Source: a virus | Direction: 5' to 3' (one strand) | Virus record (IMG/VR): IMGVR_UViG_3300027850_000002 | Coordinates: 111,416 to 175,415 of that record | Length of the DNA stretch: 64,000 nt | Shown: one piece after another, positions 17,666-64,000 of the stretch | How the letters are laid out: the number at the start of each line of letters is the position of its first letter | Position numbering within the stretch: the first letter of the stretch is position 1 | Notes under the pieces: generated by a model | The model's database searches: none | Told to the model about the DNA's origin: nothing | Seen by the model: the letters and a program-made list of their open reading frames with translations, nothing else | Program-made: the position numbers and the translations under genes

Positions 17666-19411
17666 TCAATCAAACAAGGTAGGGCTCGCCATCACGAGCC
17701 CGCGCCCTGCTTTCGAAACCAGTTTCTTGGCCGCAAGCTGTCGCATGTACTCGTAGCGACTTGTGGCTTTGTACTTCGTGGCTTCCTCGAGCGCTTCGTT
17801 CGTAACGGCTTCCGGGTACGCTTCAATCAAAACGTCGAGCAGTGCGCGTTCACCCTTCGACAGGCGGTGTCGCCACCAATCCTGCAACTCAGACCCCACC
17901 GGCAACGGAGCAGCGTCAGGAAGCGCCCGTACACCAACATCTGTCGCGCGAACGATGTCGCCTTGCTCAACAGTGAGATCCTCTTGTTTTAGGATGCGCA
18001 GGAACTCATATAGGCTGGTGGCTTTGTACCCCGTGAGCACGGTCAGCTGTTCACGACGAAGACCCGCGGGATATTGAATCAACGCAGTCAGAATGTTCCG
18101 CGGCCCTTTCGCAAGCGGACTGGCATCGACGATTCCTTTGGGGACCGCCATACGTCCGGTTCCCATCGGTGGATGGCGCTGTGCACCAATCGCAGGAGGT
18201 GCGTCAATCCTCGCTGAGGTCCGCTGTTTCATCGCAAGGTCGATAACAGTCTGACGGAGCATGTTATCGGCGTGCTTGTTGTTGACCTCCGCCTGCGCGA
18301 CCTTGCCGAGCTGGATTGCGACCATCGAACGGAAGTTGTGCAGCTCGCTGACGACGACCTGCTGCGCCTGCGCGAGCGTGTCCGTGACTTTGGCAAGCTT
18401 GTCGACAGCACGTTCAACGACGGCGACTTGCTTCGGATCGAAGATGCGAACTTTCTCAACTTTGGTCTTTGACAGCGCCGTCTCGGGCAGCTTTGTGATT
18501 TTGATCTGGCGCTCGAGGTCGCGGACGCGTGTACGCAGCTCGGACACGGTTTGTTGCTCGACCTCGACTTCCTTGGGCAGGTCAGCGAGCTGTGCCAGGA
18601 TGCGCTTCACACTGGCACGCGGAGGTGTTGGCGGGGCTGCGCGTTCGCCTGCACGCGGGTGTGTTGTCTGAACCTCGCCGATCTTGATAGTGCGAACGTC
18701 GTCGCAGATCGCAGGACCAAACGCATAGAACTGGCCTGCCTTGAGCGCACGAAGTCCGAGCATGTCCGTCGAGTTCGACATGCCCAACTCCGCAGACGCG
18801 CGACGCATGTCGATATCGAGACCGCAGCGTCCGATGAGCTTGTTGTTGCACTCAGCTGCTGCGTCCTTGCTGAGCTTGCTGATCCGCTGGGTAGCAAGCA
18901 CGCCACAGAAGCCGCGCTTGCGTCCGCGCGTCATCAGATCAATGACGGCATGTGCGCTCTCGGCCTTGTCCTTCTCAGGACAGAACATGTGGGCCTCATC
19001 AATAATGACGAGAACCGGATGCCACAGCTCACGCGGCGCCGACATCATAGACTCGAGGAACAGCTTCACGAATCGTTGGCGTTGTGCGCCCAGTTCGTAA
19101 ATGTCGATGATCGCAGAGACGTTCAACTCGAGCAGTCGCCGCGCCAGCAACGCAGCGCTCTTACAGTCGGCCGGACAGTCGCCGCCTTTTTGACCTGCGA
19201 GCACGTAGTCGTACTTCTCGCGCAAGGAGTGAAACTCGCCTTCGACGTCAATCAGGATCTGTTGGGGTCCGCCGTATGTGGTCTCACACAGCTTGCGGAG
19301 CGCGTAGCTCTTACCTCCGCCAGAGTTGGCCTGGAGCAACAGCCGCGTTTCGACGAGGCGCTGAACGTCGATGGAGACGTTCGGCGCCAGTTGTGCGAGG
19401 AGCTTGGTCAC
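17666..19411 (-). CDS. HerA/FtsK-like ATPase with two winged-helix repeats
   Basis: A 581-residue protein; the GTG start overlaps the upstream stop as GTGA. Residues 27-41 carry Walker A (ANSGGGKSYALRK) and 133-143 Walker B (VLVIIDEAHMF), with spacing and flanks (LIDVEGEFHSL, TRGRKRGFCGVLATQR) typical of HerA/DUF87 translocases. The centre is coiled coil. The last 150 residues hold two copies of a winged-helix domain, each with YKATSxYEYxRxL. HerA proteins move along DNA in end processing. A phage copy with tandem DNA-binding tails could serve replication, recombination or defence escape. Confidence 0.7.
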   Translation of the reverse strand: MTKLLAQLAPNVSIDVQRLVETRLLLQANSGGGKSYALRKLCETTYGGPQQILIDVEGEFHSLREKYDYVLAGQKGGDCPADCKSAALLARRLLELNVSAIIDIYELGAQRQRFVKLFLESMMSAPRELWHPVLVIIDEAHMFCPEKDKAESAHAVIDLMTRGRKRGFCGVLATQRISKLSKDAAAECNNKLIGRCGLDIDMRRASAELGMSNSTDMLGLRALKAGQFYAFGPAICDDVRTIKIGEVQTTHPRAGERAAPPTPPRASVKRILAQLADLPKEVEVEQQTVSELRTRVRDLERQIKITKLPETALSKTKVEKVRIFDPKQVAVVERAVDKLAKVTDTLAQAQQVVVSELHNFRSMVAIQLGKVAQAEVNNKHADNMLRQTVIDLAMKQRTSARIDAPPAIGAQRHPPMGTGRMAVPKGIVDASPLAKGPRNILTALIQYPAGLRREQLTVLTGYKATSLYEFLRILKQEDLTVEQGDIVRATDVGVRALPDAAPLPVGSELQDWWRHRLSKGERALLDVLIEAYPEAVTNEALEEATKYKATSRYEYMRQLAAKKLVSKAGRGLVMASPTLFD

Positions 19412-19974
19412 GGTCGGAGCGCCGTAATTGCTGCAACGACCCCGCCCCAGTCGTTCGCGGACGTGCCTTCCCACCCATCACGCGTGTTGTAGCTACGACG
19501 GAACAAAACACCGTGACCTTTGGGGTGGTGCGAACACCACTCCACAAGCGTGGACGTCTTGTCTTCGATGAGAAAGTCACCAGACACGACGTGCTTCCGG
19601 CTACTGCGGACATGTAGTACGTCATCTTTGTGAAAGCCGAGGTTCTGAATGCACCACTGATCCCGTTCGTGCATCCAGTGGTTGCCGCCGAACGGCGACG
19701 TCACAGCTAAGACCTCGGCAATCTTACGTAGCTCTTCGACGCCCTCCTTGGCGCCTGGGTAGACCGGAATGCCCAAACACAGACCCGGCGCCTGCATCGA
19801 TTCATAGATGGTCTTGGCGTCGGGCCCTTCGATGCCGAGAGACTTCATGATGTCCCAGTCACCGATGTCTTCAGGCGTGAAACGTTTCCCGGTATGTTGA
19901 AACACAGCTTCCAGACACGGCGTGAGAAAGTCTCCGCAGACTCCGTCGATATCAAGTAGAACACGTGGCTTCAC
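19408..19974 (-). CDS. 5'(3')-deoxyribonucleotidase, HAD superfamily
   Basis: A 188-residue protein with HAD motif I LLDIDGVCGDF (Asp8 and Asp10), motif II Thr92 in VTSPFGG, and motif IV IEDKTSTL. The order, size and the DIDGV start match the NT5C-type nucleotidases found in many large phages, which dephosphorylate deoxynucleoside monophosphates. It overlaps the methylase upstream by ATGA, grouping it with nucleotide and DNA metabolism. Confidence 0.75.
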   Translation of the reverse strand: MKPRVLLDIDGVCGDFLTPCLEAVFQHTGKRFTPEDIGDWDIMKSLGIEGPDAKTIYESMQAPGLCLGIPVYPGAKEGVEELRKIAEVLAVTSPFGGNHWMHERDQWCIQNLGFHKDDVLHVRSSRKHVVSGDFLIEDKTSTLVEWCSHHPKGHGVLFRRSYNTRDGWEGTSANDWGGVVAAITALRP

Positions 19975-44665: not shown

Positions 44666-44863
44666 CTACTCGAACAGGTCGAGCAGGTCGCCACCCGTGC
44701 TTTCGTCCTCCAACGGGGCCTCGCCTGCTACTTGCCGGCGTAGCCACGTGCGGTGACGTCGTTTGAGCAACGCCAGTCGCTTCGCTTTGCTGAACGCTTC
44801 CGCGAAGCTCGTCGCGCCGAGAAAGGGCACGCCATGGGGCTTGCCGTTGGTCCACGTCATCAC
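44666..44863 (-). CDS. Small basic hypothetical protein
   Basis: A 65-residue protein (GTG start, or ATG one codon later) overlapping the upstream stop. It reads SFAEAFSKAKRLALLKRRHR in the middle and ends in an acidic DLLDLFE. Last gene of the Cys-knuckle array, itself without the knuckle. Confidence 0.45.
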   Translation of the reverse strand: MMTWTNGKPHGVPFLGATSFAEAFSKAKRLALLKRRHRTWLRRQVAGEAPLEDESTGGDLLDLFE

Positions 44864-45108
44864 TCACCGCTTGGTATCACATCGTCAAGAGGCGCAGCAA
44901 CGATACATTGAAGACACGTCGGGAAGCCGTCGACCTTCGTTCGAGCGTTGACGTCGTCCACCGTTACTTGCAGACGACAGAGAGTTGTGTATTCGACACG
45001 GTCAACACCGTGGGGCGTGCCGTACACGAGCTTGAGGATCGAGTGCTTCAGCTTTCGTAGAGGATCGAACCAGAGCCAGGGTATGTTCTCGCGGGTTTGA
45101 AACGTCAC
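44860..45108 (-). CDS. Cys-knuckle family protein (array member 1)
   Basis: An 82-residue protein with GTG start in a GTGA overlap. His-Gly-Val-Asp then YTTLCRLQV and PTCLQCIVA provide the family's His, single Cys and CxxC. The layout H-x(n)-C-x(n)-TCxxC suggests one zinc ion per protein. Function unknown. Confidence 0.55.
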   Translation of the reverse strand: MTFQTRENIPWLWFDPLRKLKHSILKLVYGTPHGVDRVEYTTLCRLQVTVDDVNARTKVDGFPTCLQCIVAAPLDDVIPSGE

Positions 45109-45596
45109 GGCTTGGGCATTGTGGTAAGCATCCCGGCGAGCCACGCTTGGTAGTCGACGATGTTCTTGTAGTCGTCGAAGATGGAGACGACGCGCCGACC
45201 GTTCATCTTCGGCGGAGGTATGTTCTGTAGTGGAATTTGCGGTCCAGGATACGGCGTACGTCCGGAGACGGTCTTTCCATATCGTGCGGCGAACGTCAGG
45301 GTCTTCTGTTCGTAGCGAAAGCTGACGCCGTCCGTTGAGTGTCCAGACAAACAACGAATACATGTGAGCATGTGGTCGTCGTTGATGTAGACGCCTTCAC
45401 GTGCGCGTCCTTTAGACCCGGGGTACAACGTGACAAGGACGCCACACTCCGTGATGCCCTCGACGGGATACATATCGTTGACGTCCATCTGTTCGTAGCT
45501 CGTGACGTAGGTTGCAAGCACTGTATGCGTGAGACTGTCGTGGTCGGGACCACGATCGTAAAAGAACGTCCAACGGTTGCGGCCGAGGGGCTTCAC
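45105..45596 (-). CDS. Cys-knuckle family protein with C-terminal extension (member 2)
   Basis: A 163-residue protein with GTG start in a GTGA overlap. SLTHTVL, ITECGVLV and MLTCIRCLSG give the family ligands, here in the middle of the protein. About 75 residues follow (FRYEQKTLTFAARYGKT and a Pro-rich part), absent from other members, so this is an extended or fused form. Confidence 0.55.
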   Translation of the reverse strand: MKPLGRNRWTFFYDRGPDHDSLTHTVLATYVTSYEQMDVNDMYPVEGITECGVLVTLYPGSKGRAREGVYINDDHMLTCIRCLSGHSTDGVSFRYEQKTLTFAARYGKTVSGRTPYPGPQIPLQNIPPPKMNGRRVVSIFDDYKNIVDYQAWLAGMLTTMPKP

Positions 45597-45883
45597 TCCA
45601 CCTGCTCCCGTGTCCCCAAACACTCGAGGCAGTTGATTATGGCTGGTTCGTCGGTTTGCGCGTCGTCCCATGTTTTAGCCAACACGTCTGTGCAGAGGAT
45701 GGTGTAGCCGATGATGACATCGACGTGATCGACGCCGGCACCGAGGATGTTGTCTGCGGATTGCCGTACCAGCACGGCGCCGTGGTGAACGAGCTGCGTC
45801 GCAGGGTCACGCCAGCGAAACGCTGCGGGCAGGAGCAGGATTCGAGGAACGACTCTTCGTGAGTCGAGTTTTCCAAAGCTCAT
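45593..45883 (-). CDS. Cys-knuckle family protein (member 3)
   Basis: A 96-residue protein behind GGAGGAG, in a TGATG overlap. TQLVHHGAVLVRQ, IGYTILCTDV and IINCLECLGT are the His, Cys and CxxC elements. The N-terminus is basic and hydrophobic. Function unknown. Confidence 0.55.
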   Translation of the reverse strand: MSFGKLDSRRVVPRILLLPAAFRWRDPATQLVHHGAVLVRQSADNILGAGVDHVDVIIGYTILCTDVLAKTWDDAQTDEPAIINCLECLGTREQVE

Positions 45884-46062
45884 CACTCCTCCTTGGCCAG
45901 GCACTGTAAGCATGTGCGTACCCGGTCGCCTTGTTGAACTTCGTCGCTGCCGAACGTCTGATCGCACAACGTCAGGTAGGCCATCGCGCTGCGGCCCGGA
46001 AACACGATGGCGTGCACGAGGCCTGTGCTATCGACGACCGACCAGATGGTTCGGGCCGTCAT
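45883..46062 (-). CDS. Cys-knuckle family protein (member 4)
   Basis: A 59-residue protein, one of the most compact members. IWSVVDSTGLVHAIVFPG, YLTLCDQTF and VRTCLQCLAKEE cover almost its whole length, so this approximates the minimal domain. ATG in an ATGA overlap. Confidence 0.6.
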   Translation of the reverse strand: MTARTIWSVVDSTGLVHAIVFPGRSAMAYLTLCDQTFGSDEVQQGDRVRTCLQCLAKEE

Positions 46063-46229
46063 CGCAGGCATTCAGGCTTCACCATCTCCTTGACGGTGTC
46101 GTGCACGCGGTCCTCGTAGCCGTGTGAATAGTTCCACGACCGTTCGAGCTGCCACGCGCCGTAGCTGACGAAGCTGAGAACAATGACCACGACGACGTAG
46201 AACGCCACGGACGGCTTGAAGGTCTTCAC
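46059..46229 (-). CDS. Small membrane protein
   Basis: A 56-residue protein with GTG start in a GTGA overlap with the gene upstream and ATGA with the one downstream. One membrane span (VAFYVVVVIVLSFVSYGAW) and a charged helix with VKPECLR at the end. It interrupts the Cys-knuckle array. The competing reading frame on this strand has no such features. Confidence 0.55.
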   Translation of the reverse strand: MKTFKPSVAFYVVVVIVLSFVSYGAWQLERSWNYSHGYEDRVHDTVKEMVKPECLR

Positions 46230-46801
46230 GGCTTTTCTTTCTCCTTCTCGAGTTTCTCCTGTTCCTCGTACGCACGCATCAGTGCTTCCTGTTTGAGGCG
46301 CTCGGGCCAGTAGTACTCAGGCGTGTCGTAGTACGAGACCTTCTCTTCAACGACGGGCCGCACATAGTGCTCACGTTGGACATCCTTGTTCTTAGGCCAG
46401 TCTTCCCAAGCGCTGTCCTCTATCTCGTCTTGATCGAAGTACCACTCCATCCGCGCGTCGATGAGCTTCTGCTTCGCAGCGGGCGATAACCCTGTCATGC
46501 ACTGGCCGCCGGCCTTCATGTCGGGGAAGAAGTTCTCCTCCAGGTCGTTCCAAAGCTGTTCGTAGATCCAACCCTCGCACGCGAAGTGATCGCGGATCTC
46601 GACACACAACAAGCACGTCTTGAACGAATCGGGTCGACCGTCCCAGACGCTGGTAGCGTAGTCGTACTTCGTGCCTGCGGAGATGACCTCACGGCATTCA
46701 CCGCATACATGCTCCTTGCGGGCCTTGCGTACCGTTCGTGACGAACACGTCGGGCCTTCGCCGTCGTTGCCTTGAAGCGGACAGCAGACGATGTCACCCA
46801 T
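46226..46801 (-). CDS. Double-CxxC zinc protein
   Basis: A 191-residue protein. RKARKEHVCGECREVISAGT and FKTCLLCVEIRDHF form a four-Cys zinc domain of the RKArK..C.eC...I..G..Y...(14)..k.C..C type known from phages and bacteria. The C-terminal 80 residues are acidic and aromatic, ending in a coiled coil. It has the TCxxC signature in common with neighbours but two complete pairs. Confidence 0.55.
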   Translation of the reverse strand: MGDIVCCPLQGNDGEGPTCSSRTVRKARKEHVCGECREVISAGTKYDYATSVWDGRPDSFKTCLLCVEIRDHFACEGWIYEQLWNDLEENFFPDMKAGGQCMTGLSPAAKQKLIDARMEWYFDQDEIEDSAWEDWPKNKDVQREHYVRPVVEEKVSYYDTPEYYWPERLKQEALMRAYEEQEKLEKEKEKP

Positions 46802-46959
46802 CACAGCACCCAGTAGATGGGTTCAAGACCAATACACGCGAAGCATGTCAACGGACCGTCCACGGTGTCCCATGTTCGGGTGAGCTGACTCTCGTTGCAC
46901 AACGAGAGATGGTGACGAGGCCGTTCAATGTGAACAAGCCCGTCACCACCTGAGTGCAC
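46801..46959 (-). CDS. Cys-knuckle family protein (member 5)
   Basis: A 52-residue protein. GDGLVHIERPRHHLSLCNES and GPLTCFACIGLEP provide the full ligand set. The GTG start lies within the coding region of the motif and no ribosome binding site is visible, so the true start could be slightly upstream with a non-standard codon. Confidence 0.5.
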   Translation of the reverse strand: MHSGGDGLVHIERPRHHLSLCNESQLTRTWDTVDGPLTCFACIGLEPIYWVL

Positions 46960-46997
46960 GGAAAGCGTTACGTAGTCGAACCGAGGTTGCGTGAGAC

Positions 46998-47243
46998 CTA
47001 CGGTGCTGCGTCCTTCGCAATCTTGTTGAGGGCTGAAACGTCGATCGGACGAGCCACGCGACGCGGCATCATCTTGAGCTTGACGCCTTCCTTGCGGAGG
47101 CGCGTCGACATTGCCGACACTGTGTTGCGGGAGAGGCCCGTCGCGGCCACCACCTCGGCGATGTTCGTCGCCTTCTGCCAGTTCTTCACAAAGGCCTCGT
47201 AAGCGTACGGGGCCGTCTTGGTCTTTCCATTCATCTTGGTCAT
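46998..47243 (-). CDS. Helix-turn-helix protein
   Basis: An 81-residue protein. NIAEVVAATGLSRNTVSAMS is a clear HTH, followed by TRLRKEGVKLKMMPRR, a combination common in small phage regulators that act on homologous sites. It lies in the array between members 5 and 6 and could regulate it. Confidence 0.6.
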   Translation of the reverse strand: MTKMNGKTKTAPYAYEAFVKNWQKATNIAEVVAATGLSRNTVSAMSTRLRKEGVKLKMMPRRVARPIDVSALNKIAKDAAP

Positions 47244-47313
47244 ATTGCTTTTCTGGCATGGCTCGGCACCTCCGTCAAGAGTCTAGTCAGTTCAATAAAC
47301 ACAGCTCGACAGT

Positions 47314-47517
47314 TCAGAACTCGCCCCACGGCCTTTCAACCAGGCAGCGAAAGCATGTGGTAGGTCCGAACTCGTAGTACACGGGCGACTTTGTACGGCC
47401 CATCCCGCATACAGTGGTGCCCCGAGAATTAGCACGGTGCATGAGGTCGTCGTGACCAGCCACATAGCCGTAGCGCCAGAGTCGGCGTTCAGCATCGAAG
47501 TCGACTATATCCCTCAG
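47314..47517 (-). CDS. Cys-knuckle family protein (member 6), CTG start
   Basis: A 67-residue protein. DDLMHRANSRGTTVCGMG and GPTTCFRCLVERP supply the ligands. The only start compatible with the neighbour is CTG in a CTGA overlap, paralleling the ATGA and GTGA overlaps elsewhere. The start is therefore uncertain, the domain is not. Confidence 0.5.
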   Translation of the reverse strand: MRDIVDFDAERRLWRYGYVAGHDDLMHRANSRGTTVCGMGRTKSPVYYEFGPTTCFRCLVERPWGEF

Positions 47518-47732
47518 GTTGTTGGATCTTTCGTCCAATCGTGCATCGTAACGCCGGCAGCGCAGCCCATGCACGAGACCGGCAACGAGGTGACTGACGA
47601 CATCGCGAAGCCCCAGCCGCATGTGAACCAGGGCCACTCAGATTTGTTGTCCCGTTCGTTGGTCTCGCCGATATGGACAAGGCCGGTCGTGCGGTCGAGG
47701 AAGTGGTTATTGATGAGTGTTGGCGTTGGCAC
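47514..47732 (-). CDS. Cys-knuckle family protein (member 7)
   Basis: A 72-residue protein with GTG behind AAGGAG. DRTTGLVHIGETNE, WPWFTCGWGF and PVSCMGCAAG match the family. It overlaps the upstream gene by 26 bases. Function unknown. Confidence 0.55.
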   Translation of the reverse strand: MPTPTLINNHFLDRTTGLVHIGETNERDNKSEWPWFTCGWGFAMSSVTSLPVSCMGCAAGVTMHDWTKDPTT

Positions 47733-48126
47733 GTACCTCTCCTTCCCGTGCGATGCACTGCAGGCAGTTGACGGTCACTTCGTGGCTGAGAATACATTCG
47801 GCGTCGACACTCTCGTAGTCGCAGAACCGCATCCAGTGATCAATGCCGTCCCGAGTGTTGATGCCGGCGGAGTGCGTGAGCTGCTCGCGGCCAAGCGCAC
47901 GCCACTGGCGATAGGGTTCGTGAACGATGGGTGCGACCAAGAAGACCTGCGAGATGAACAAGAGGCGGCTCATCATCGATGAAGTGGTCGGCGACCAAGG
48001 CCCGACCTTGTTCTTGGTCATCTCGTCGACAGGCTGTCCGATCATCGGCTTGAGCGCGTCCCTCAAGTAGTCCGACATCCGTTGATGGATCTTCTTGATC
48101 CGCTTGTTGCGCTGTCGTTTGTTCAT
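47707..48126 (-). CDS. Cys-knuckle family protein with basic start and hydrophobic segment (member 8)
   Basis: A 139-residue protein starting at an ATGA overlap. The first 20 residues are Lys/Arg-rich (MNKRQRNKRIKKIHQRM), a hydrophobic segment follows (SRLLFISQVFLVAPIV), then HWMRFCDYES and VTVNCLQCIAREG. A membrane-associated variant seems likely. Confidence 0.55.
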   Translation of the reverse strand: MNKRQRNKRIKKIHQRMSDYLRDALKPMIGQPVDEMTKNKVGPWSPTTSSMMSRLLFISQVFLVAPIVHEPYRQWRALGREQLTHSAGINTRDGIDHWMRFCDYESVDAECILSHEVTVNCLQCIAREGEVRANANTHQ

Positions 48127-48602
48127 TCGTGTTCCGCCGCGATGCACTGAAGGCACGACAGGATGGGCGGGTCCTTGGGCAAGTACATGAAGCATGTGAC
48201 TGTGGTCGTTTGCGGGCACTGCCACAGGAACAGCATCCCACACAAGAGAACGCCGGCCTGTTCAGCGAACGGCCACACCTGGACACGGTGAGCGAGGTCC
48301 GTGTTGGCGTCGGCGACAATGAACGGACGCTTGGTTTCGTTGCCTCGTAGCGGACTCTCTTGAATCTCGAGCGACTCGTCCTCGACCTCGGTGGTGTAGA
48401 GGCGGTGGCACAACATGAAGTCGTCGTTCTCGTAGGCGTCAGCGATAGCGCGTCGAACATCGGCGTCGGACACTTCGTCCTCGATGTTATTCATGATGAT
48501 TTCGGCACGCGCCTCCCGGGCGTCTTCAAGGGAGGCCCACGTGGTCACGTTTTCTCCGTGCCGATGCTTGTAGTGCAGCACGTACGTGTACTGCTTCATC
48601 AT
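48123..48602 (-). CDS. Cys-knuckle family protein, long form (member 9)
   Basis: A 159-residue protein with an N-terminal region of about 60 residues (TYVLHYKHRHGENVTTWASL, then helices) unlike other members. VLLCGMLFLWQC and PILSCLQCIAAEHE form the C-terminal knuckle. Start in an ATGA overlap. Confidence 0.5.
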   Translation of the reverse strand: MMKQYTYVLHYKHRHGENVTTWASLEDAREARAEIIMNNIEDEVSDADVRRAIADAYENDDFMLCHRLYTTEVEDESLEIQESPLRGNETKRPFIVADANTDLAHRVQVWPFAEQAGVLLCGMLFLWQCPQTTTVTCFMYLPKDPPILSCLQCIAAEHE

Positions 48603-48907
48603 CCGAAGCTCCCGACGCTGAGGCATTGCAGGCAGGTTGGAATCTCACGCACGTGGTACTCGACGATTTGGAATCGAGGCGAGCTGTGGGTCATCGTCAC
48701 GGCGGGAAGGGTGGAGCCGTGCCAATAGATGCCGCGCTGGTTGATTCCGTCGAATTGCTCGACCTTCGGGTGACATGCCGTCGAAACGTGCAGCGTGCAA
48801 AGCTTGTCTTCATCGTCAAAGAACCGCGCAACCATCGAATTGTGCAGGAGGCCCATGTCATCGCGGCAGACCCAGTGGTCGCGTTTGTTACGGGACGTCA
48901 CAGACAC
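48599..48907 (-). CDS. Cys-knuckle family protein (member 10)
   Basis: A 102-residue protein with GTG start one base after the upstream stop. DHWVCRDDMGLLHNSMV, KLCTLHVSTAC and EIPTCLQCLSVG. It has extra Cys/His residues between the standard ligands, so a second site is possible. Confidence 0.55.
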   Translation of the reverse strand: MSVTSRNKRDHWVCRDDMGLLHNSMVARFFDDEDKLCTLHVSTACHPKVEQFDGINQRGIYWHGSTLPAVTMTHSSPRFQIVEYHVREIPTCLQCLSVGSFG

Positions 48908-48908
48908 G

Positions 48909-49121
48909 TCAATGCCACGCGCCGCACGAACACGGGCCACTACGGACATCGCACGACTGCCCACCGTTCGTACCAAGCGACGCGTGCTCACCATGGGCGT
49001 CCATCAGACCGAGGTCCATCGCGCCGTTGACGAAGCAGCATTGCTGCAGTCCGTTGAAGTCGTGTTTGTGTTTCTCGGGGTGATTCTTGATATCGAGCAT
49101 CTTGGCTTGTCGCGCATTCAT
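48909..49121 (-). CDS. Conserved small phage protein with CSCGAWH end
   Basis: A 70-residue protein. GLQQCCFVNGAMDLGLMDAH, then QSCDVRSGPCSCGAWH, a pattern I know from several phages and bacteria, probably metal-binding, without known function. It overlaps the following frame by 133 bases, which is unusual here. Confidence 0.55.
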   Translation of the reverse strand: MNARQAKMLDIKNHPEKHKHDFNGLQQCCFVNGAMDLGLMDAHGEHASLGTNGGQSCDVRSGPCSCGAWH

Positions 49122-49287
49122 CGTCGATAACTCTCCCGAAGCTCCCGGTGCAGCGCTTGTTCGTCATGAGCATGTACACGAGGTCGTAGGCCGCGTCGTA
49201 CATCGCGTTCGGGCGGGCTTTGACCTCGGAGGTCGAGATTGTATCGCCTGTCACGATGACGAGCTTGATGCGTGGTTTGTAGGCCAC
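48988..49287 (-). CDS. Hypothetical protein with long 3' overlap
   Basis: A 99-residue frame with GTG start in a TAGTG overlap. The first 50 residues (RIKLVIVTGDTISTSEVKAR, AYDLVYMLMTNKRC) look protein-like. The remaining part overlaps the 49121 gene and looks like its shadow. The real product may be shorter through a frameshift, or both frames are used. Confidence 0.4.
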   Translation of the reverse strand: MAYKPRIKLVIVTGDTISTSEVKARPNAMYDAAYDLVYMLMTNKRCTGSFGRVIDDECATSQDARYQESPRETQTRLQRTAAMLLRQRRDGPRSDGRPW

Positions 49288-49592
49288 TACGTCATCGCTC
49301 CGGTTGTGAGGTTGAGGCTGTACAGCTTGTAGATCTCGGGTTGATACAACGTCGCGTTGACGCTGCACACGTGCTGCTTGCACAGTGCATAATTGGTCCA
49401 GGCCCCGGTCGACACCTTGAGCCCGAACGGATCGTTGGCCAGCTCCTCCGGTGTCCATGTGATTGGGTGCGTGCGGTCGAACAACGAATCGAGAACGATC
49501 GTCTCGGCTTCACGTCGGCTGCATGCGCTCACGAGGTAGACGGTCTCGATGTCGTCTTTTTTGTGGATGACCTTCCAGACGTTGAGGGTCAT
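49287..49592 (-). CDS. Hypothetical protein
   Basis: A 101-residue alpha/beta protein (NVWKVIHKKDDIETVYLVSA at the start) with two Cys near residues 71 and 75. Starts in an ATGA overlap. Function unknown. Confidence 0.45.
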   Translation of the reverse strand: MTLNVWKVIHKKDDIETVYLVSACSRREAETIVLDSLFDRTHPITWTPEELANDPFGLKVSTGAWTNYALCKQHVCSVNATLYQPEIYKLYSLNLTTGAMT

Positions 49593-49804
49593 ACGTACTC
49601 CGGCCAGACAAAGACGTCGTCAGGGAACCCGCCCTTGAGCTGCTTTCGATAGGCACCACCGGCCATGGCCATCGTGCGCCGATACTCGTCGTCGTCCTCG
49701 GTGCACTGGCGCATGGCGGCGGATGCTTCGACCTGTGACTTGAAGGGGCCGCACTTCGCGATGCCGCCACCTCGTGCGAACCATTGCAGTTTCTTTTTCG
49801 CCAT
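49589..49804 (-). CDS. Hypothetical protein
   Basis: A 71-residue protein beginning MAKKKLQWFARGGGIAKCGP and ending FPDDVFVWPEYV, with a helix between. TGATG overlap at the start. The start sequence resembles small conserved phage proteins but no function is known. Confidence 0.45.
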   Translation of the reverse strand: MAKKKLQWFARGGGIAKCGPFKSQVEASAAMRQCTEDDDEYRRTMAMAGGAYRKQLKGGFPDDVFVWPEYV

Positions 49805-50016
49805 CACGCGCTCCCGAAGCGAAACGACTGGAAGCACGGATCGCCGTCTGAATCGCTGATGAAGAACCCGAGCGTCTCAAGACGTTTTTCGTCGGCCGCG
49901 GAGACTTTCCCCGGGTCAATGCCGCAAATGGTCAGAACGTCGTGCTCGCAGTGTGTCGGGTTGCGCGGGTTGCCGTACTTGAGGAAGATGGTGAGCGCTT
50001 CGATGAGGTCCTTCAT
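49804..50016 (-). CDS. Conserved small phage protein
   Basis: A 70-residue protein. IFLKYGNPRNPTHCEHDVLT, LETLGFF and FQSFRFGSA recur, from memory, in many phage genomes with no assigned function. His-Cys-Glu-His could bind a metal. ATGA overlap. Confidence 0.5.
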   Translation of the reverse strand: MKDLIEALTIFLKYGNPRNPTHCEHDVLTICGIDPGKVSAADEKRLETLGFFISDSDGDPCFQSFRFGSA

Positions 50017-50204
50017 GTCTTCTCCATCCGGGCGACGGCGTGGCGTGCGGCGTCGACGTGCGTTTGAGCACTCGCGATGTCGATGCGCGCAGCGTCTCTC
50101 GGCGAACCCGCGAGAGGCGCAGGTAGTCGACGGGAGGCTTCCTTCAAGGCCATCTGCGCCGTCAGCAACAGTCCGTAGATGACGCCGATGTCTTCGTCGC
50201 TCAT
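50013..50204 (-). CDS. Small helical protein
   Basis: A 63-residue protein, mostly helix (YGLLLTAQMALKEASRRL, AQTHVDAARHAVARMEK). Coupled by ATGA on both sides. Function unknown. Confidence 0.45.
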   Translation of the reverse strand: MSDEDIGVIYGLLLTAQMALKEASRRLPAPLAGSPRDAARIDIASAQTHVDAARHAVARMEKT

Positions 50205-50248
50205 GGCTGGATGCGCTTGTCGAGGTCATCGGGATCGATGTCAGACAC
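50201..50248 (-). CDS. Possible 15-residue peptide gene
   Basis: GTG start inside the end of the upstream gene and stop in an ATGA overlap with the downstream start; product VSDIDPDDLDKRIQP. The overlaps at both ends mimic those of the real genes around it, which is the only support. No ribosome binding site. Confidence 0.35.
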   Translation of the reverse strand: MSDIDPDDLDKRIQP

Positions 50249-51581
50249 TGAGCACCTCACTCGTCTGCCGTTCGAGGTCCCAGTGCTTCTCGATGAAGTC
50301 GATGACGAGCTTGGGGTCGACGTTCTTGTTGAACACGATGTTGGGTCCGTGCTTCTCGAGCATCACCGCCTTCACGGGGTATTTGAGGTTGCCGTTGTAG
50401 AGGTCAAAAACTTTCAGCCCGTCGCTCGTGTTCTTGCCGCACTCGTGCGAGCCGCACTCGTGGGCTTCTTGCGACCGCATGGGGATGTCACCACGCACGA
50501 GGTTCTCGTGGCGGTCGCCCTTCATCGGGCAGTGGAAGTGCACGATGCAATCGACGTCCGGATGGTCCGCGAAGATGATGCGCTGACTCTGGCCGCCGAC
50601 CGAGGGCTTCGCACCCATGGCGATCACGTTGTCGTCGCCTTTGGCGAGCACCATCACCATACCGACCTTGTCCAGCTCGTTGAAGTTCACGCCGCGCCGA
50701 GACGTCACGAACACGCCGTTGTCGACCTTGAACGCGAAGTGTCCGACGGTCTTACCGTTGAACGGCTTGTACGCACCGCGCTTGATGCAGTGGTCGACGA
50801 CGGTGCGTAGCGACGCAGGAACGGTCTCGCCGGTCCACGTGACAGGCTCACCTTCACGAACCTCGCTGCGTGTGAAGTGTCCCTTCGACCGATCAACCGC
50901 CATCGACACCAGGCCGTTGATCGCCGAGCGTCGGTCGTAGGTCATGTAGTACGGCGCCTGCTCGGGCGTGACGACCATGTTCATGCGGGTCTCGAGGTCG
51001 TTGGCGAGCACGAGGTTGCATGACGCCTTCTTCACGAGGTTCAGGCCGGCGTCGAACTGCTGTTCGGGGGTGGCGCCGGTCGTCGTCTTGAAGCCGACGA
51101 GGAAGATGTCCTTGCGGGTGCGTCGGACCTTCTGGATGACCTTCTCGGACGGACGGAGGTTGAGCCCGTACTCGTGCGCCGAGGACAAGCGTGAGTACGC
51201 CTTGCCGATGTCACGAAGCTTCTCGCCCATCGACCACAGCCCGTCGATGGACTCGACCTCGAAGTCACACAGCGCCGCCGGCAAGATGATGACCTTGGGC
51301 TTAGGGTCGGTGCACAGCTCGTTGAGCAGAGCTGCGATGTCTTCGTTGGTCTCGAGGTTCTTGGGCTCGACATCGTCACGCCCCGTACGCGCCGACCAGA
51401 TCGAATGACGGTTGCCCGCCATCTTCGTCGTGTACGAGTGGACGAGGCCGTCGAAGTTGTTCTGGTACAGCGCCTCCTCGATGTCACGCACGACCTTGCC
51501 GTACGCAGGAGCCGAGAGCGCGAGATGCGGACGGATGTGGAACACGGTTCCGCCGCCGATGATGTGGACGGGCTTGTTCAT
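50241..51581 (-). CDS. CoaB-like domain fused to class II aldolase/adducin domain
   Basis: A 446-residue protein with AAGGAA before the ATG. Residues 1-235 resemble the phosphopantothenoylcysteine synthase (CoaB/DFP) half: HIIGGGT start, VIILPAALCDFEVESIDG, IFLVGFKTTTGATPEQQF, LVLANDLETRM. Residues 270-446 resemble class II aldolases: VGHFAFKVDNGVFVTSRRG, HPDVDCIVHFHCP with the His pair for metal, and LEKHGPNIV. I know no common host protein with this pair. The product might act on a coenzyme or nucleotide-sugar metabolite. Confidence 0.65.
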   Translation of the reverse strand: MNKPVHIIGGGTVFHIRPHLALSAPAYGKVVRDIEEALYQNNFDGLVHSYTTKMAGNRHSIWSARTGRDDVEPKNLETNEDIAALLNELCTDPKPKVIILPAALCDFEVESIDGLWSMGEKLRDIGKAYSRLSSAHEYGLNLRPSEKVIQKVRRTRKDIFLVGFKTTTGATPEQQFDAGLNLVKKASCNLVLANDLETRMNMVVTPEQAPYYMTYDRRSAINGLVSMAVDRSKGHFTRSEVREGEPVTWTGETVPASLRTVVDHCIKRGAYKPFNGKTVGHFAFKVDNGVFVTSRRGVNFNELDKVGMVMVLAKGDDNVIAMGAKPSVGGQSQRIIFADHPDVDCIVHFHCPMKGDRHENLVRGDIPMRSQEAHECGSHECGKNTSDGLKVFDLYNGNLKYPVKAVMLEKHGPNIVFNKNVDPKLVIDFIEKHWDLERQTSEVLSV

Positions 51582-51790
51582 GGTGTTTCCTTGTGAGCGT
51601 GTGCATCGCAGCGCACGCAGATCTTCTTCTTGCGTCCGCCGGTCTGGCGGAACCAGTGCCATTCGTGGGAGCCGAGCCTGCACAGAAGCTGCCCAGCGAC
51701 GTACGACGCGAGCTGCGGTGCTCGCCGGACGTAGTCATGCCAGCGCAGACCTTCTTCGATGCCTGCTCGATAGTCGCGCGAGGGGCGCAT
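51578..51790 (-). CDS. Small zinc-site protein
   Basis: A 70-residue protein with LLCRLGSHEWHWFRQTGGRK followed by ICVRCDAHAH: C...H...CxxC, a compact zinc site known from small phage proteins. It shares the C-H-CxxC theme but not the order of the array family. Overlaps both neighbours. Confidence 0.5.
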   Translation of the reverse strand: MRPSRDYRAGIEEGLRWHDYVRRAPQLASYVAGQLLCRLGSHEWHWFRQTGGRKKKICVRCDAHAHKETP

Positions 51791-51966
51791 TACTCCTCCG
51801 GTTCGATGGGCTCGCTCGCCTCGTAGTTGGGGTCGGTGAGAACTTCGGGACGGAAGCACTTCAGCTTCTCGTCGATGCATTCGTTGCAGACGCGTGCGAG
51901 GGGAATGCCGCGAGCGTCGTTCTCCCACCACGAGCCGTCACCCTTAGTGTGCTGATGCGCCGTCAT
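51790..51966 (-). CDS. Conserved small phage protein (WENDARGIPLARVC)
   Basis: A 58-residue protein with WWENDARGIPLARVCNECID, then KCFRPEVLTDPNYEASEPIE. This combination is, from memory, widespread in phages and prophages of many hosts, with a CxxC site and unknown function. Stop overlaps the next start as TAATG. Confidence 0.6.
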   Translation of the reverse strand: MTAHQHTKGDGSWWENDARGIPLARVCNECIDEKLKCFRPEVLTDPNYEASEPIEPEE

Positions 51967-51978
51967 GCCGAAGCCTTT

Positions 51979-52003
51979 CGTTCGTATTTTGACGTTCGTA
52001 TTT
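51979..52003. repeat. Two copies of an 11-bp direct repeat
   Basis: CGTTCGTATTT at 51979-51989 and 51993-52003, in the 45-base gap between genes. TACGTC follows twice just after. On the minus strand this is directly upstream of the 51966 gene and could be an operator. Confidence 0.4.
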
Positions 52004-52011
52004 CTACGTCT

Positions 52012-52239
52012 TTACGTCATGGAGATGTTTGTTTGACAGACCTCTCTTGCTTTCCCTGTCTCAAAGCGCAGACTCCCCTTGTGTTGGTTGCGTTCATCCA
52101 GGCGAACCGCACCATCCTCATTGAGCGTGCGCAAGAACGCCTCATTGAGCGTGCGCAAGAACGCCTCATTGAGCGTGCGCAACGCGCCCCACATGCCGTA
52201 GGTGTTTGCGATGCGGGTGTAGCGCTTCGTCGGTTTCAC
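52012..52239 (-). CDS. Hypothetical protein with internal octapeptide repeat
   Basis: A 75-residue protein. The centre is nearly three copies of an eight-residue unit (LRTLNEAF) encoded by a 24-bp tandem repeat. The flanks (IANTYGMWGA and FETGKAREVCQT) are unrelated. ATGA overlap with the upstream gene. Function unknown. Confidence 0.45.
   Translation of the reverse strand: MKPTKRYTRIANTYGMWGALRTLNEAFLRTLNEAFLRTLNEDGAVRLDERNQHKGSLRFETGKAREVCQTNISMT
52117..52182. repeat. 24-bp tandem repeat, 2.75 copies
   Basis: Units at 52117-52140, 52141-52164 and the partial 52165-52182 are identical where they overlap (CTCATTGAGCGTGCGCAAGA is the first part). The unit is in frame with the host gene, so copy number changes keep the frame open. 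Confidence 0.8.
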
Positions 52240-52547
52240 GCGGCATCGGCCTTGGCCTTTGCATCGAGCTTGACTCGAACCCGTCGAAGCTTTGCATAGA
52301 GCGCGGGGTCCTCGCTCTCATGCATGAGCGACGGATTGGGGTCGCGGCCTTCCATGTCGCAGTCTTCGCAGAACGAGTTGTCACCGTTGTTCCACGAGCC
52401 GCACAGATCGTGGGTCTGGTCGGTGTTGGGCGAATACCAGATCGAGTACTGCACGTCGTGCGAGCCACAGACTCGACAACAACAGAAGTCCGTGTCAGGC
52501 GCCGTCGTCGTCTTCGACTTCTTTTTCTTCTTCTTCAATGTAGCCAC
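52236..52547 (-). CDS. Zinc-site protein with poly-Lys start
   Basis: A 103-residue protein with CCCRVCGSHDVQYSIWY and SFCEDCDMEGRD, a four-Cys zinc domain separated by an acidic/aromatic stretch containing HDLCGSW. The N-terminus is six Lys in a row. It overlaps the preceding small gene by 53 bases; a TTG three codons later is an alternative start. Confidence 0.5.
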   Translation of the reverse strand: MATLKKKKKKSKTTTAPDTDFCCCRVCGSHDVQYSIWYSPNTDQTHDLCGSWNNGDNSFCEDCDMEGRDPNPSLMHESEDPALYAKLRRVRVKLDAKAKADAA

Positions 52548-52587
52548 GTTCGTACGCCTCCTTGGCGATGTTGAAACCGAACTTCAC
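52495..52587 (-). CDS. 30-residue acidic-tail protein
   Basis: A short gene with GTG in a GTGA overlap; product begins VKFGFNIAKEAYERGYIEEE and ends in Glu/Asp. The first half looks like conserved small phage peptides. It overlaps the zinc-site gene in another frame, so one of the two may be shorter than drawn. Confidence 0.4.
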   Translation of the reverse strand: MKFGFNIAKEAYERGYIEEEEKEVEDDDGA

Positions 52588-52715
52588 GTTCTCGAGGGGT
52601 GGCCTGTGACCTCGAGAAGGGTGAGATCACACTCCGTGATGATGATGGGTTGATGTTCCGGTGTTTCGTAGATGATGTGGACGAGACCGTCATCGTCGCA
52701 GTTGAACTGGTTCAT
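52584..52715 (-). CDS. Cys-knuckle relative lacking the CxxC (degenerate member)
   Basis: A 43-residue protein in an ATGA overlap. CDDDGLVHIIYETPEHQP and IITECDLTLLE keep the GLVH and single-Cys parts of the array family, but it stops before the CxxC. It may be a truncated copy or a half-site partner. Confidence 0.45.
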   Translation of the reverse strand: MNQFNCDDDGLVHIIYETPEHQPIIITECDLTLLEVTGHPSRT

Positions 52716-52951
52716 GGTTCAGGCCCTTGTTCGTTCGGTGAACGAACGCCCCATTGAAACCATTGAAGCCCCGAACCATCGGAGCCGCCGATGCACCAGA
52801 AGCACGTCGGCACCGCGTTGCGATCGTAATGTTGGTCCATCGTGGCAGCTCCGAAGCTGCCCTTGCAGACCGAAAGGCTCAGGCTCTTAACGTCGCGCAG
52901 GTGTACGACCGGGTCGGGTCCTTTGATGCGGGTGTAGTCGGTGTACTTCAC
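52712..52951 (-). CDS. Cys-knuckle family protein (member 11)
   Basis: A 79-residue protein with GTG in a GTGA overlap. GPDPVVHLRDVKSLSLSVCK and AVPTCFWCIGGSDG. A Trp/Gly-rich tail of about 20 residues follows. Function unknown. Confidence 0.55.
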   Translation of the reverse strand: MKYTDYTRIKGPDPVVHLRDVKSLSLSVCKGSFGAATMDQHYDRNAVPTCFWCIGGSDGSGLQWFQWGVRSPNEQGPEP

Positions 52952-53199
52952 TTCCAGAAACTCCTCCCTGAGAGGCACCAGAGACATGTGACGGGTGCGA
53001 GCGTCTCGACCATACGGTGGTCGATCAAGCACACCGTCATACCGAGGTGGTTGGCGGTCACCTGTTGACTGCTCTCGTGAACGACGCCGTTGTCGTCAGC
53101 CCAGTGCCACGACAGACCCGCGCCAAGTCGTTGCGAGAGCACAGAGCCTTGCTCGCTCGTCGGTAGAGGTGTGTGTGGTGTAAACGTTCGACGCTTCAT
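52948..53199 (-). CDS. Cys-knuckle family protein (member 12)
   Basis: An 83-residue protein in an ATGA overlap. LSWHWADDNGVVHESSQQ, GMTVCLIDH and APVTCLWCLSGRS. The first 25 residues are polar and Thr/Pro-rich. Confidence 0.55.
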   Translation of the reverse strand: MKRRTFTPHTPLPTSEQGSVLSQRLGAGLSWHWADDNGVVHESSQQVTANHLGMTVCLIDHRMVETLAPVTCLWCLSGRSFWK

Positions 53200-53438
53200 G
53201 GTTCGAACTCTTTTGCCAAACACTGGAGGCAAGTTACGAAACCGTTGAACAGGTGCGGCGGTTTGTTGGTGCGAGATGTGGTGACTATCACCTCGTAGAG
53301 GCCGCAAAGCGTGACCCAGGTGACCGATTCTTCTTCGAAGACATTGTGAAGAACTCCGTGACGAAGACCGTGAAGACTCCAGACCTTGCCTTCGAGGTAC
53401 ATGAGCTGCCACCCACGATCGACGGCCGCGTGCCTCAC
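53196..53438 (-). CDS. Cys-knuckle family protein (member 13)
   Basis: An 80-residue protein with GTG in a GTGA overlap. VWSLHGLRHGVLHNVFEE, TWVTLCGLYE and GFVTCLQCLAKEFEP. The C-terminus is nearly identical to member 4 (TCLQCLAKE), showing recent common origin. Confidence 0.6.
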   Translation of the reverse strand: MRHAAVDRGWQLMYLEGKVWSLHGLRHGVLHNVFEEESVTWVTLCGLYEVIVTTSRTNKPPHLFNGFVTCLQCLAKEFEP

Positions 53439-53980
53439 GACGTTTCGATCTCAATCAGTGGTCGACCGTAACCCTGCCACTCCTTCACACAGTCTTCGCA
53501 CGTGATGACAGCCTCCTTAGTCGTACGCAGTCGTCGTGTGGATGCACCACACATTGTGTAGTTCGTGTCGACGATACCGATGTGAACTGTACCAGGACGT
53601 CCTGCGCTCATATGTGGGTACTGGAGCAGACGAGCTATATCACTCGGTCCAAGCGTGTACGCTTTGTCGGTAGGCGGATTGGCGTAACGCCAATGACGCG
53701 GGTTGATACATGTAGCCAAACCACACGTGTTCTCGAGAAACAGACGGCGGATGCCAACACCGTCATTGTCCCAACACCAAAGCAATCGGGCGACAACGAA
53801 CTGTACCGAGACCTCGGCCGGCGGCGTCCACGGAAAGATGGCGATCGGTCCTGCACCATCGTCATGGAACTCAGCGAGCCAATACCAGTGGTTCGGTGTG
53901 ACCTCCACGAAGGGGTCAACCAGCTCACGGGGAGGGATCACAACCGTACGTCCGAAATGTCCAGGTAACCGGATACCCAT
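53435..53980 (-). CDS. HNH-like domain fused to Cys-knuckle domain (member 14)
   Basis: A 181-residue protein. VVARLLWCWDNDG and NTCGLATCINPRHW resemble the C...CxNPxHL core of HNH-type nuclease folds. The C-terminal PGTVHIGIVD, YTMCGAST and VITCEDCVKEW is the array domain. A full catalytic His pair is not evident, so nuclease activity is uncertain. Confidence 0.5.
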   Translation of the reverse strand: MGIRLPGHFGRTVVIPPRELVDPFVEVTPNHWYWLAEFHDDGAGPIAIFPWTPPAEVSVQFVVARLLWCWDNDGVGIRRLFLENTCGLATCINPRHWRYANPPTDKAYTLGPSDIARLLQYPHMSAGRPGTVHIGIVDTNYTMCGASTRRLRTTKEAVITCEDCVKEWQGYGRPLIEIETS

Positions 53981-54570
53981 CAGCAACCGCCTTTACATGT
54001 GATGACTGCGTTGGTGGCGAGCACTGTGGAAACGTCGGGGACGATGACGGCTTCGCACATCGCAACAAACCTGGACGTCAGAACCGGGAGCACGGGCACT
54101 GCGTGCGAAACCCCGTGCTGGTCACGTACCGCGAGTAGCAGGCGCTTCTCCACAGGGCGTCCTGTTCGGCGCTCGACCACACGCCAACCCCCGTACTCGG
54201 CAGGGTCGAAGCGATACCGGGGCACAGGTTCAACCCATGTCCAGTGGTCCGGATTCACACAGCCCGGGTGACCGCACTTCAGTGTGAAGCTAGAACGTTC
54301 GGGGAACGGTCCTTTGTGGTGTTCGATAAGCAATCGAGCAACGACAAATATTCCACGCTTAACATTTGTGTTGGGCGCCCACGATATAACCGCATGGCCG
54401 TACTCACTAAGACGACGTGGAAACTTGGCCTCGAGATCGACAGACCATAACCAATGCCCTGAAGTGTCTTCGTCCTTCACTATATAACGCAGTAAAAGCG
54501 CCATCGGAGGCTGTTGTTTTCGGAGCCAAGTCGCTCCATGTGTTTTCAACAAGTTGGCGGAATATGACAT
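53980..54570 (-). CDS. HNH-like domain fused to Cys-knuckle domain (member 15)
   Basis: About 196 residues from the chosen ATG at 54570; GTG 54624 and ATG 54504 are alternatives, none with a good ribosome binding site. VVARLLIEHHKGPF and LKCGHPGCVNPDHWTW form an HNH-like part. DQHGVSHAVP, AMCEAVIV and VITCKGGC form the C-terminal knuckle, with C-x3-C in place of CxxC. Its order and sequence parallel member 14, so they arose by duplication. Confidence 0.5.
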   Translation of the reverse strand: MSYSANLLKTHGATWLRKQQPPMALLLRYIVKDEDTSGHWLWSVDLEAKFPRRLSEYGHAVISWAPNTNVKRGIFVVARLLIEHHKGPFPERSSFTLKCGHPGCVNPDHWTWVEPVPRYRFDPAEYGGWRVVERRTGRPVEKRLLLAVRDQHGVSHAVPVLPVLTSRFVAMCEAVIVPDVSTVLATNAVITCKGGC

Positions 54571-63377: not shown

Positions 63378-64000
63378 ATGAGCGACCATGCCATCCCCAC
63401 CACATACAACGGTGTCCGATTCCGCTCGCGACTCGAGGCGCGTTGGGCCGCATTCTTTGATCTCTGCAAGTGGCCGTGGTCGTACGAGCCTCTCGACCTC
63501 AAGGGTTACATTCCTGACTTCATTCTCTCGTTCAAGTCTCCACTGCTTGTCGAGGTGAAGCCCTTGATGTGGGACTCTTCGTTCGAGGAGCAAGAAGCTG
63601 TCACGGCAGCACAGAGAAAGATTGCAACTGCTGGATGGCGGAAGGAATCGATCATCGTGGGTGCCCGCGTCATCCAAGGGCCTGTTCTAGACAACAAGCT
63701 CGGCGTATGCAGTGATCGACACGTCCATTATGACGCTTTCGATACGCCAGTCTCTGCTGAGTTTATATGGGACGACGCGTTTTACTATTGTTGTTCGAAC
63801 TGTAAGCAGGCCACATTCGGAAATACAACACAGTCATGGCGTTGTCGTACGTCCGATTGTTACGACGGAGACCGCTATCTGACGGATGGATGGGATGCCG
63901 CTGCGATGTTTAACGAGGCGGGCAACAAGGTACAGTGGAAGGCGCCTCAGTCATCAATAGTTAAGACGCGAGGCAAGGTACGTACCAAACCACGCGCCAG
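63378..64000 (+). CDS. PD-(D/E)XK nuclease with zinc ribbon (partial, runs off the window)
   Basis: Open to the last base, 207 residues visible. VRFRSRLEARWAAFFD (Glu20), YIPDFIL (Asp47) and LLVEVKPLM (Glu59, Lys61) form the catalytic core of the PD-(D/E)XK fold. CCSNCKQATFG and WRCRTSDCYD give a four-Cys zinc ribbon behind it. Proteins of this type in phages are thought to be endonucleases for host DNA breakdown or recombination. GAGG precedes the ATG. Confidence 0.7.
   Translation, partial: MSDHAIPTTYNGVRFRSRLEARWAAFFDLCKWPWSYEPLDLKGYIPDFILSFKSPLLVEVKPLMWDSSFEEQEAVTAAQRKIATAGWRKESIIVGARVIQGPVLDNKLGVCSDRHVHYDAFDTPVSAEFIWDDAFYYCCSNCKQATFGNTTQSWRCRTSDCYDGDRYLTDGWDAAAMFNEAGNKVQWKAPQSSIVKTRGKVRTKPRA

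Follow-up and report, generated by a model that had tools for sequence, protein, structure and literature searches.

Small proteins sharing one H..C..CxxC domain are encoded in about 45 copies across a 175-kb viral record, where they form two minus-strand arrays and one singleton. Related uncultured phages carry 27–80 copies each, with every match on one strand per genome, and the array carriers are large tailed phages of one uncultured clade. The array copies are real genes under purifying selection. Our reading of them, which we hold tentatively and at somewhat below even chances, is that they represent an old, lineage-specific expansion of zinc-held scaffolds, i.e., non-structural copies that may each bind a different partner for host takeover or counter-defence. 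Given how densely phages pack their genomes, tens of genes for one tiny domain need explaining.

Genome Setting and the Window Array

The stretch analysed here (64,000 nucleotides; hereafter the window) covers bases 111416–175415 of the 175,415-base IMG/VR record IMGVR_UViG_3300027850_000002 (genome G000). A 99.9% identical contig bridges the record end to the record start via ~227 extra bases (L036 20353–20654; window 63926–64000; L003 position 1), which makes it probable that we are dealing with a nearly complete, circular or circularly permuted genome of ~175.6 kb. A large structural protein in the window is here called the putative tail sheath, partly on the basis of remote similarity. Salmonella phage Arash and three Vibrio phages encode proteins to which it aligns at 28–39% coverage and 32–34% identity, and its nearer relatives are found only in uncultured phages. 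No relative was found in the bacterial genomes searched with this gene for host assignment.

The original prediction for this DNA had listed 15 small minus-strand proteins between 44.86 and 54.57 kb of the window, and at all 15 stop positions an ORF is present that ends in the described Cys motif (Table 1). The proposed C-terminal motif, (T/N/S)C-x2-C, holds generally, with member 15 slightly off in that it ends in TC-x3-C (ITCKGGC), as does its ortholog G002_58647. The family as a whole is not confined to this interval: ~27 further copies lie near the start of the record and one lies between. The proposed fusion of the genes by overlaps was also borne out, with four-base ATGA/GTGA-type overlaps available at ~10 junctions of the window array, and co-expression of the members from these overlapping genes is plausible. 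The array lies on the strand opposite to the plus-strand genes that include the putative sheath. Sigma-70 promoters showed no excess over chance, and the 15 terminators found are not convincing against an expectation of 9.8 (sd 3.7).

Table 1. Domain copies and other features of the window and genome. Positions are those of the window unless marked as genome positions; E-values are from the own-genome profile unless stated otherwise.
Feature	Position	Strand	Description	E-value	Orthologs
Member 1	44860..45108	-	82 aa with GTG start; 4-base overlap with upstream stop	3e-11	G002, G003
Member 2	45105..45596	-	163 aa	7e-4; clade model 4e-8	G002, G003
Member 3	45593..45883	-	96 aa; AGGAGG-like site before ATG	0.24 (weak); clade model 1e-6	G003
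Member 4	45883..46071	-	62 aa, minimal domain; AlphaFold2 pLDDT 74.5	2.5e-14	
Member 5	46801..47259	-	152 aa	1.6e-12	present
Member 6	47314..47637	-	up to 107 aa, start uncertain	2.7e-12	G003
Member 7	47514..47732	-	72 aa	4.8e-13	present
Member 8	47707..48126	-	139 aa	0.02; clade model 1.3e-6	present
Member 9	48123..48602	-	159 aa	1.5e-10	present
Member 10	48599..48994	-	131 aa, long H-to-C loop	2e-7; clade model 0.04	present
Truncated 16th member	52584..52715	-	43 aa; DDGLVH...C kept, without CxxC; absent from the original prediction	8.5e-9 (partial model only)	
Member 11	52712..52951	-	79 aa	9.8e-13	G002
Member 12	52948..53199	-	83 aa	1.1e-12	G002
Member 13	53196..53438	-	80 aa	1.9e-14	G002
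Member 14	53435..53980	-	181 aa; HNH-like N-terminal half + domain	1.8e-13	aligns with member 15 and relatives
Member 15	53980..54570	-	~196 aa, start uncertain; HNH-like N-terminal half + variant domain TC-x3-C	2.5e-5	
Window array	genome 156.3–166 kb	-	found by profile		
Second array	genome 0.16–21.5 kb	-	~27 further copies, found by profile		
Singleton	genome 64.0 kb		one copy, found by profile		
Putative tail sheath	2763–5156		large structural protein		
Other gene	17666–19474	-	HerA/Zot-like ATPase with winged-helix-like end; also matches large-terminase PHROG phrog_2666	1.2e-16 (phrog_2666)	
Other gene inside array	46226–46804	-	different Cys-rich protein (CGECREVISAGTKY); matches phrog_19515 (unknown function)	8.7e-14 (phrog_19515)	
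Other gene in array region	50241–51683	-	CoaB-like (DFP) domain fused to class II aldolase/adducin domain; probably an auxiliary metabolic gene		
Repeat in array region	52116–52182		24-base unit repeated perfectly in tandem (2.8 copies); lies in a short minus-strand ORF that encodes FLRTLNEA repeats		

One Domain With Near-Invariant Ligands and Variable Loops

A profile built from the genome itself (seeded with 12 domains and iterated for four rounds) connected the members, as the prediction had anticipated. By round four it recovered 40 ORFs of G000 at E<0.01, all on the minus strand. In the same rounds the best plus-strand ORF reached only E 0.39–1.6, and a control set of 6,804 reversed or shuffled ORFs gave nothing better than E 0.028–0.12, except that one shuffled ORF came to 0.0055 with the last model. 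A larger profile, A3, matched G000 45 times at E<0.02 and 47 times when the limit was relaxed to E<1, and a few of these matches are split or partial. Among 8,682 ORFs from seven records, 274 matches were obtained at E<0.1, on a single strand per genome in all cases, and the full H..C..CxxC pattern is kept in 250 of them, leaving 24 exceptions.

The consensus is roughly W-x-D-x-x-G-[LV]-V-H ... T-L-C-G ... V-T-C-[VL]-x-C-[IL]-A. Across 118 aligned domains the H, C, and CxxC ligands are near-invariant, and these four ligands make it likely, as judged from sequence, that the domain binds zinc. The loops between them vary in both length and sequence, with 5–38 residues from H to C (median 15) and 7–35 from C to CxxC (median 20). 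The conserved positions other than the ligands resemble a fold core and not a common exposed face. For the 62-aa member 4, AlphaFold2 run on the 118-row alignment predicted five strands and a C-terminal helix that starts within the CxxC knuckle (pLDDT 74.5, pTM 0.56), a model of medium confidence. A fold search with this model returned only weak small-barrel matches, the best at E 0.5 in the PDB and E 0.1 among viral models.

Occurrence in Related Phages and Beyond

By profile, 44–45 copies are present in G002 and 31 in the near-identical partial genome G005; G003 has 27–30, G006 has 77–80, and the near-identical G007 shows 39 over the portion that was read. Seven copies occur in a phage whose sheath is 66% identical; no copy was found in records with 59, 48, and 37% sheath identity, which may be fragments, or in phage T4 when searched with the profile. 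In scans of viral contigs for TCLQC[LI]A[KA] and for a DNA pattern of VTCVxCxA, several copies per contig occurred only in this clade and in L075, a 12-kb fragment on which three members lie side by side and which is probably part of the clade. Single copies were found by A3 in an Amycolatopsis plasmid, in Arthrobacter phage Ottawa (gp31), and in the Brevundimonas jumbo phage Papperlapapp, at per-record E-values of 8e-8 to 6.5e-6; these three records were pre-selected by consensus tblastn, and the collection-wide significance is much weaker than the per-record values. The copy in Papperlapapp is an unannotated ORF (L059 1504–1632, record 105607–105738).

Long degenerate tandem repeats also lie near the arrays of two relatives. 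In G002 (L018 9750–13468) the units are ~102–111 bases and the minus strand gives a collagen-type GPx reading, and in G006 (L026 11464–13635) the unit is ~63 bases.

An Old Expansion Under Purifying Selection

Reciprocal best hits link 30 members between G000 and G002, 22 between G000 and G003, and 23 between G002 and G003; gene order is preserved, and the median identity is ~50%. G000 and G006 share 12 orthologs at 37%. Within G000, by contrast, only eight of 47 members have any paralog detectable by BLAST at 1e-4. Since the orthologs are collinear at ~50% identity and the paralogs are barely alignable, the expansion is old, and the copies were distinct before the phages separated; recent tandem duplication is ruled out on the same grounds. 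The proposal that one domain was duplicated and diversified in place is supported by the profile links and the copies in relatives.

The comparison between related phages gave pN<pS in 75 of 75 ortholog pairs (median pN/pS 0.52), from which we conclude that the array ORFs are genes. The true ratios would be lower than 0.52, as synonymous sites are near saturation. Constraint on the array is looser than on a comparison set of mostly virion genes from the same phage pairs (median 0.34, slightly lowered because this set was filtered at pN/pS<0.8). At the whole-gene level no positive selection was seen among the 75 pairs, and closer relatives are 99.9–100% identical. The suggestion that diversification was driven by varied host targets finds no support in these results: the orthologs keep their order, purifying selection acts on all 75 pairs, and the divergence of the paralogs is older than the phage split.

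The looser constraint, the variation of copy number among genomes, and the existence of truncated or ligand-losing members (the 16th window member; the 24 exceptions above) would fit a mostly neutral build-up, in a genome with spare room, of small genes that arose by duplication. We regard this as improbable, since the shared gene order and the pN<pS of all 75 ortholog pairs indicate that most copies are kept by selection, and the paralogs are old rather than recent tandem copies.

Added Modules and the Possible Role of the Domain

Two of the 16 window members, 14 and 15, have N-terminal halves with an HNH-like CxxxCxNPxHW signature, which is invariant in five aligned proteins and is common to HNH endonucleases (phrog_1872, phrog_826). 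Residues 50–141 of the stop-to-stop frame of member 15 match the phrog_1872 endonuclease at E 1.8e-9, and member 14 gives no such match. HNH endonucleases usually have a His directly before the first signature Cys, whereas members 14 and 15 have LENTCG and TLKCG instead, and none of the five aligned sequences has a His at this position (the structure model of an HNH-like member, at pLDDT 37, was unusable). As the usual first His seems to be replaced, nuclease activity of these two members is doubtful. Other additions are an N-terminal phrog_6115 module with a weak Lar-like score (L003:12078–12539) and a protein with two copies of the domain (L003:9698–10351).

The HNH-like halves, together with the frequent binding of DNA or RNA by small zinc-type domains, are consistent with the copies acting as regulators that bind nucleic acid or as structural DNA-binding proteins, the role put forward for the small zinc ribbons of Bacillus phage G (PMC7824862). 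A shared role of this kind would predict a basic bias, but the domains are neutral to slightly acidic on average (mean -0.75), the charge of single domains spanning -8 to +8, and we consider it unlikely, with an appreciable chance nonetheless. It is also conceivable, but quite improbable in our judgment, that the members share the domain as a C-terminal tag, by which varied N-terminal parts would all dock onto a single partner or cell site. The last Cys lies no more than 20 residues from the protein end in 88% of members, and the N-terminal parts differ, including the HNH-like and phrog_6115 modules, as expected of a tag; yet many members, such as the 62-aa one, hardly exceed the domain and have no cargo, and the conserved positions look structural, with no evident common docking face.

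We return to the reading of the copies as a set of scaffolded binders. One zinc ion would probably hold the five strands and single helix of the mini-fold in place and leave two loops free to vary. We take the copies to be non-structural proteins whose overlapping genes would be expressed jointly, and the loops or added N-terminal module of each may bind a different host or phage partner during infection; as these parts differ, the partners probably differ as well. Such a set could serve host takeover or counter-defence, a step inferred from the layout. We count in its favor the near-invariant ligands with variable loops, the charge range, and the core-like conservation; the multiple one-strand copies, the overlapping genes, and the orientation of the window array opposite the putative sheath; and the separately conserved orthologs, their looser constraint than most virion genes, and the extra N-terminal modules. 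Against it, the whole-gene pN<pS of all 75 pairs offers no hint of an arms race, array members match no known anti-defence or defence-linked family, and the structure model, of medium confidence, matches no known fold. A bolder version, that this lineage has assembled a standing repertoire of up to ~80 zinc-scaffolded miniproteins with a partner each, a modular set of binders for takeover of the host or for counter-defence and perhaps unmatched in size among single-domain gene families of one phage genome, seems to us possible but doubtful.

Should the partners prove to be different host proteins, the array would amount to a list of host weak points and to a natural zinc-stabilized binding scaffold. 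The ordered orthologs under purifying selection make each copy a separately testable gene, and the unnamed domain now has a profile that detects it in plasmids and other phages.

Comparison With Known Families and Systems

Sequence searches of Pfam, PHROGs, NCBIfam, PADLOC, and the PDB gave no family common to the members. The member with two domain copies matches DUF3039 (PF11238) over 28 of 56 positions around LCG...PTCPxC, at best with 18.3 bits, below the cut-off of 22.7 and at this one locus; the other 43 members were scanned without a match. A search of the genome for zf-HC3 (PF16827) came back empty at E up to 1, and one member reached E 0.06 in hmmscan, at 14 bits against a cut-off of 25. 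The proteins of the Amycolatopsis plasmid, Ottawa, and Papperlapapp have the same H..LCG..TCxxC ligand layout as the members here, with one copy per record, no array, and no Pfam family.

The original prediction held that no such array is known from described phages, which needs to be qualified. In the literature searched we found one comparable phage expansion, unrelated to this one, in Bacillus phage G, where ~35 copies of a small zinc ribbon have been reported and the expansion called unprecedented (PMC7824862). We reject homology between the two expansions, since the motif differs and a search of phage G with A3 yields no match at E up to 10: the phage G proteins have CPxC...CxxxC and a conserved YWKENDRYLA tail without H..C..CxxC, whereas the members here have H..C..CxxC. 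The kind of event is therefore already known; as far as our searches reach, neither this clade nor its domain nor so high a copy number has been described. In phage G (e.g., YP_009015343.1), as here, tens of small zinc-type paralogs occur in one large phage and several copies lie close together (gp32, 34, 35, 37, 46), with ~35 copies in phage G compared to up to ~80 in this clade.
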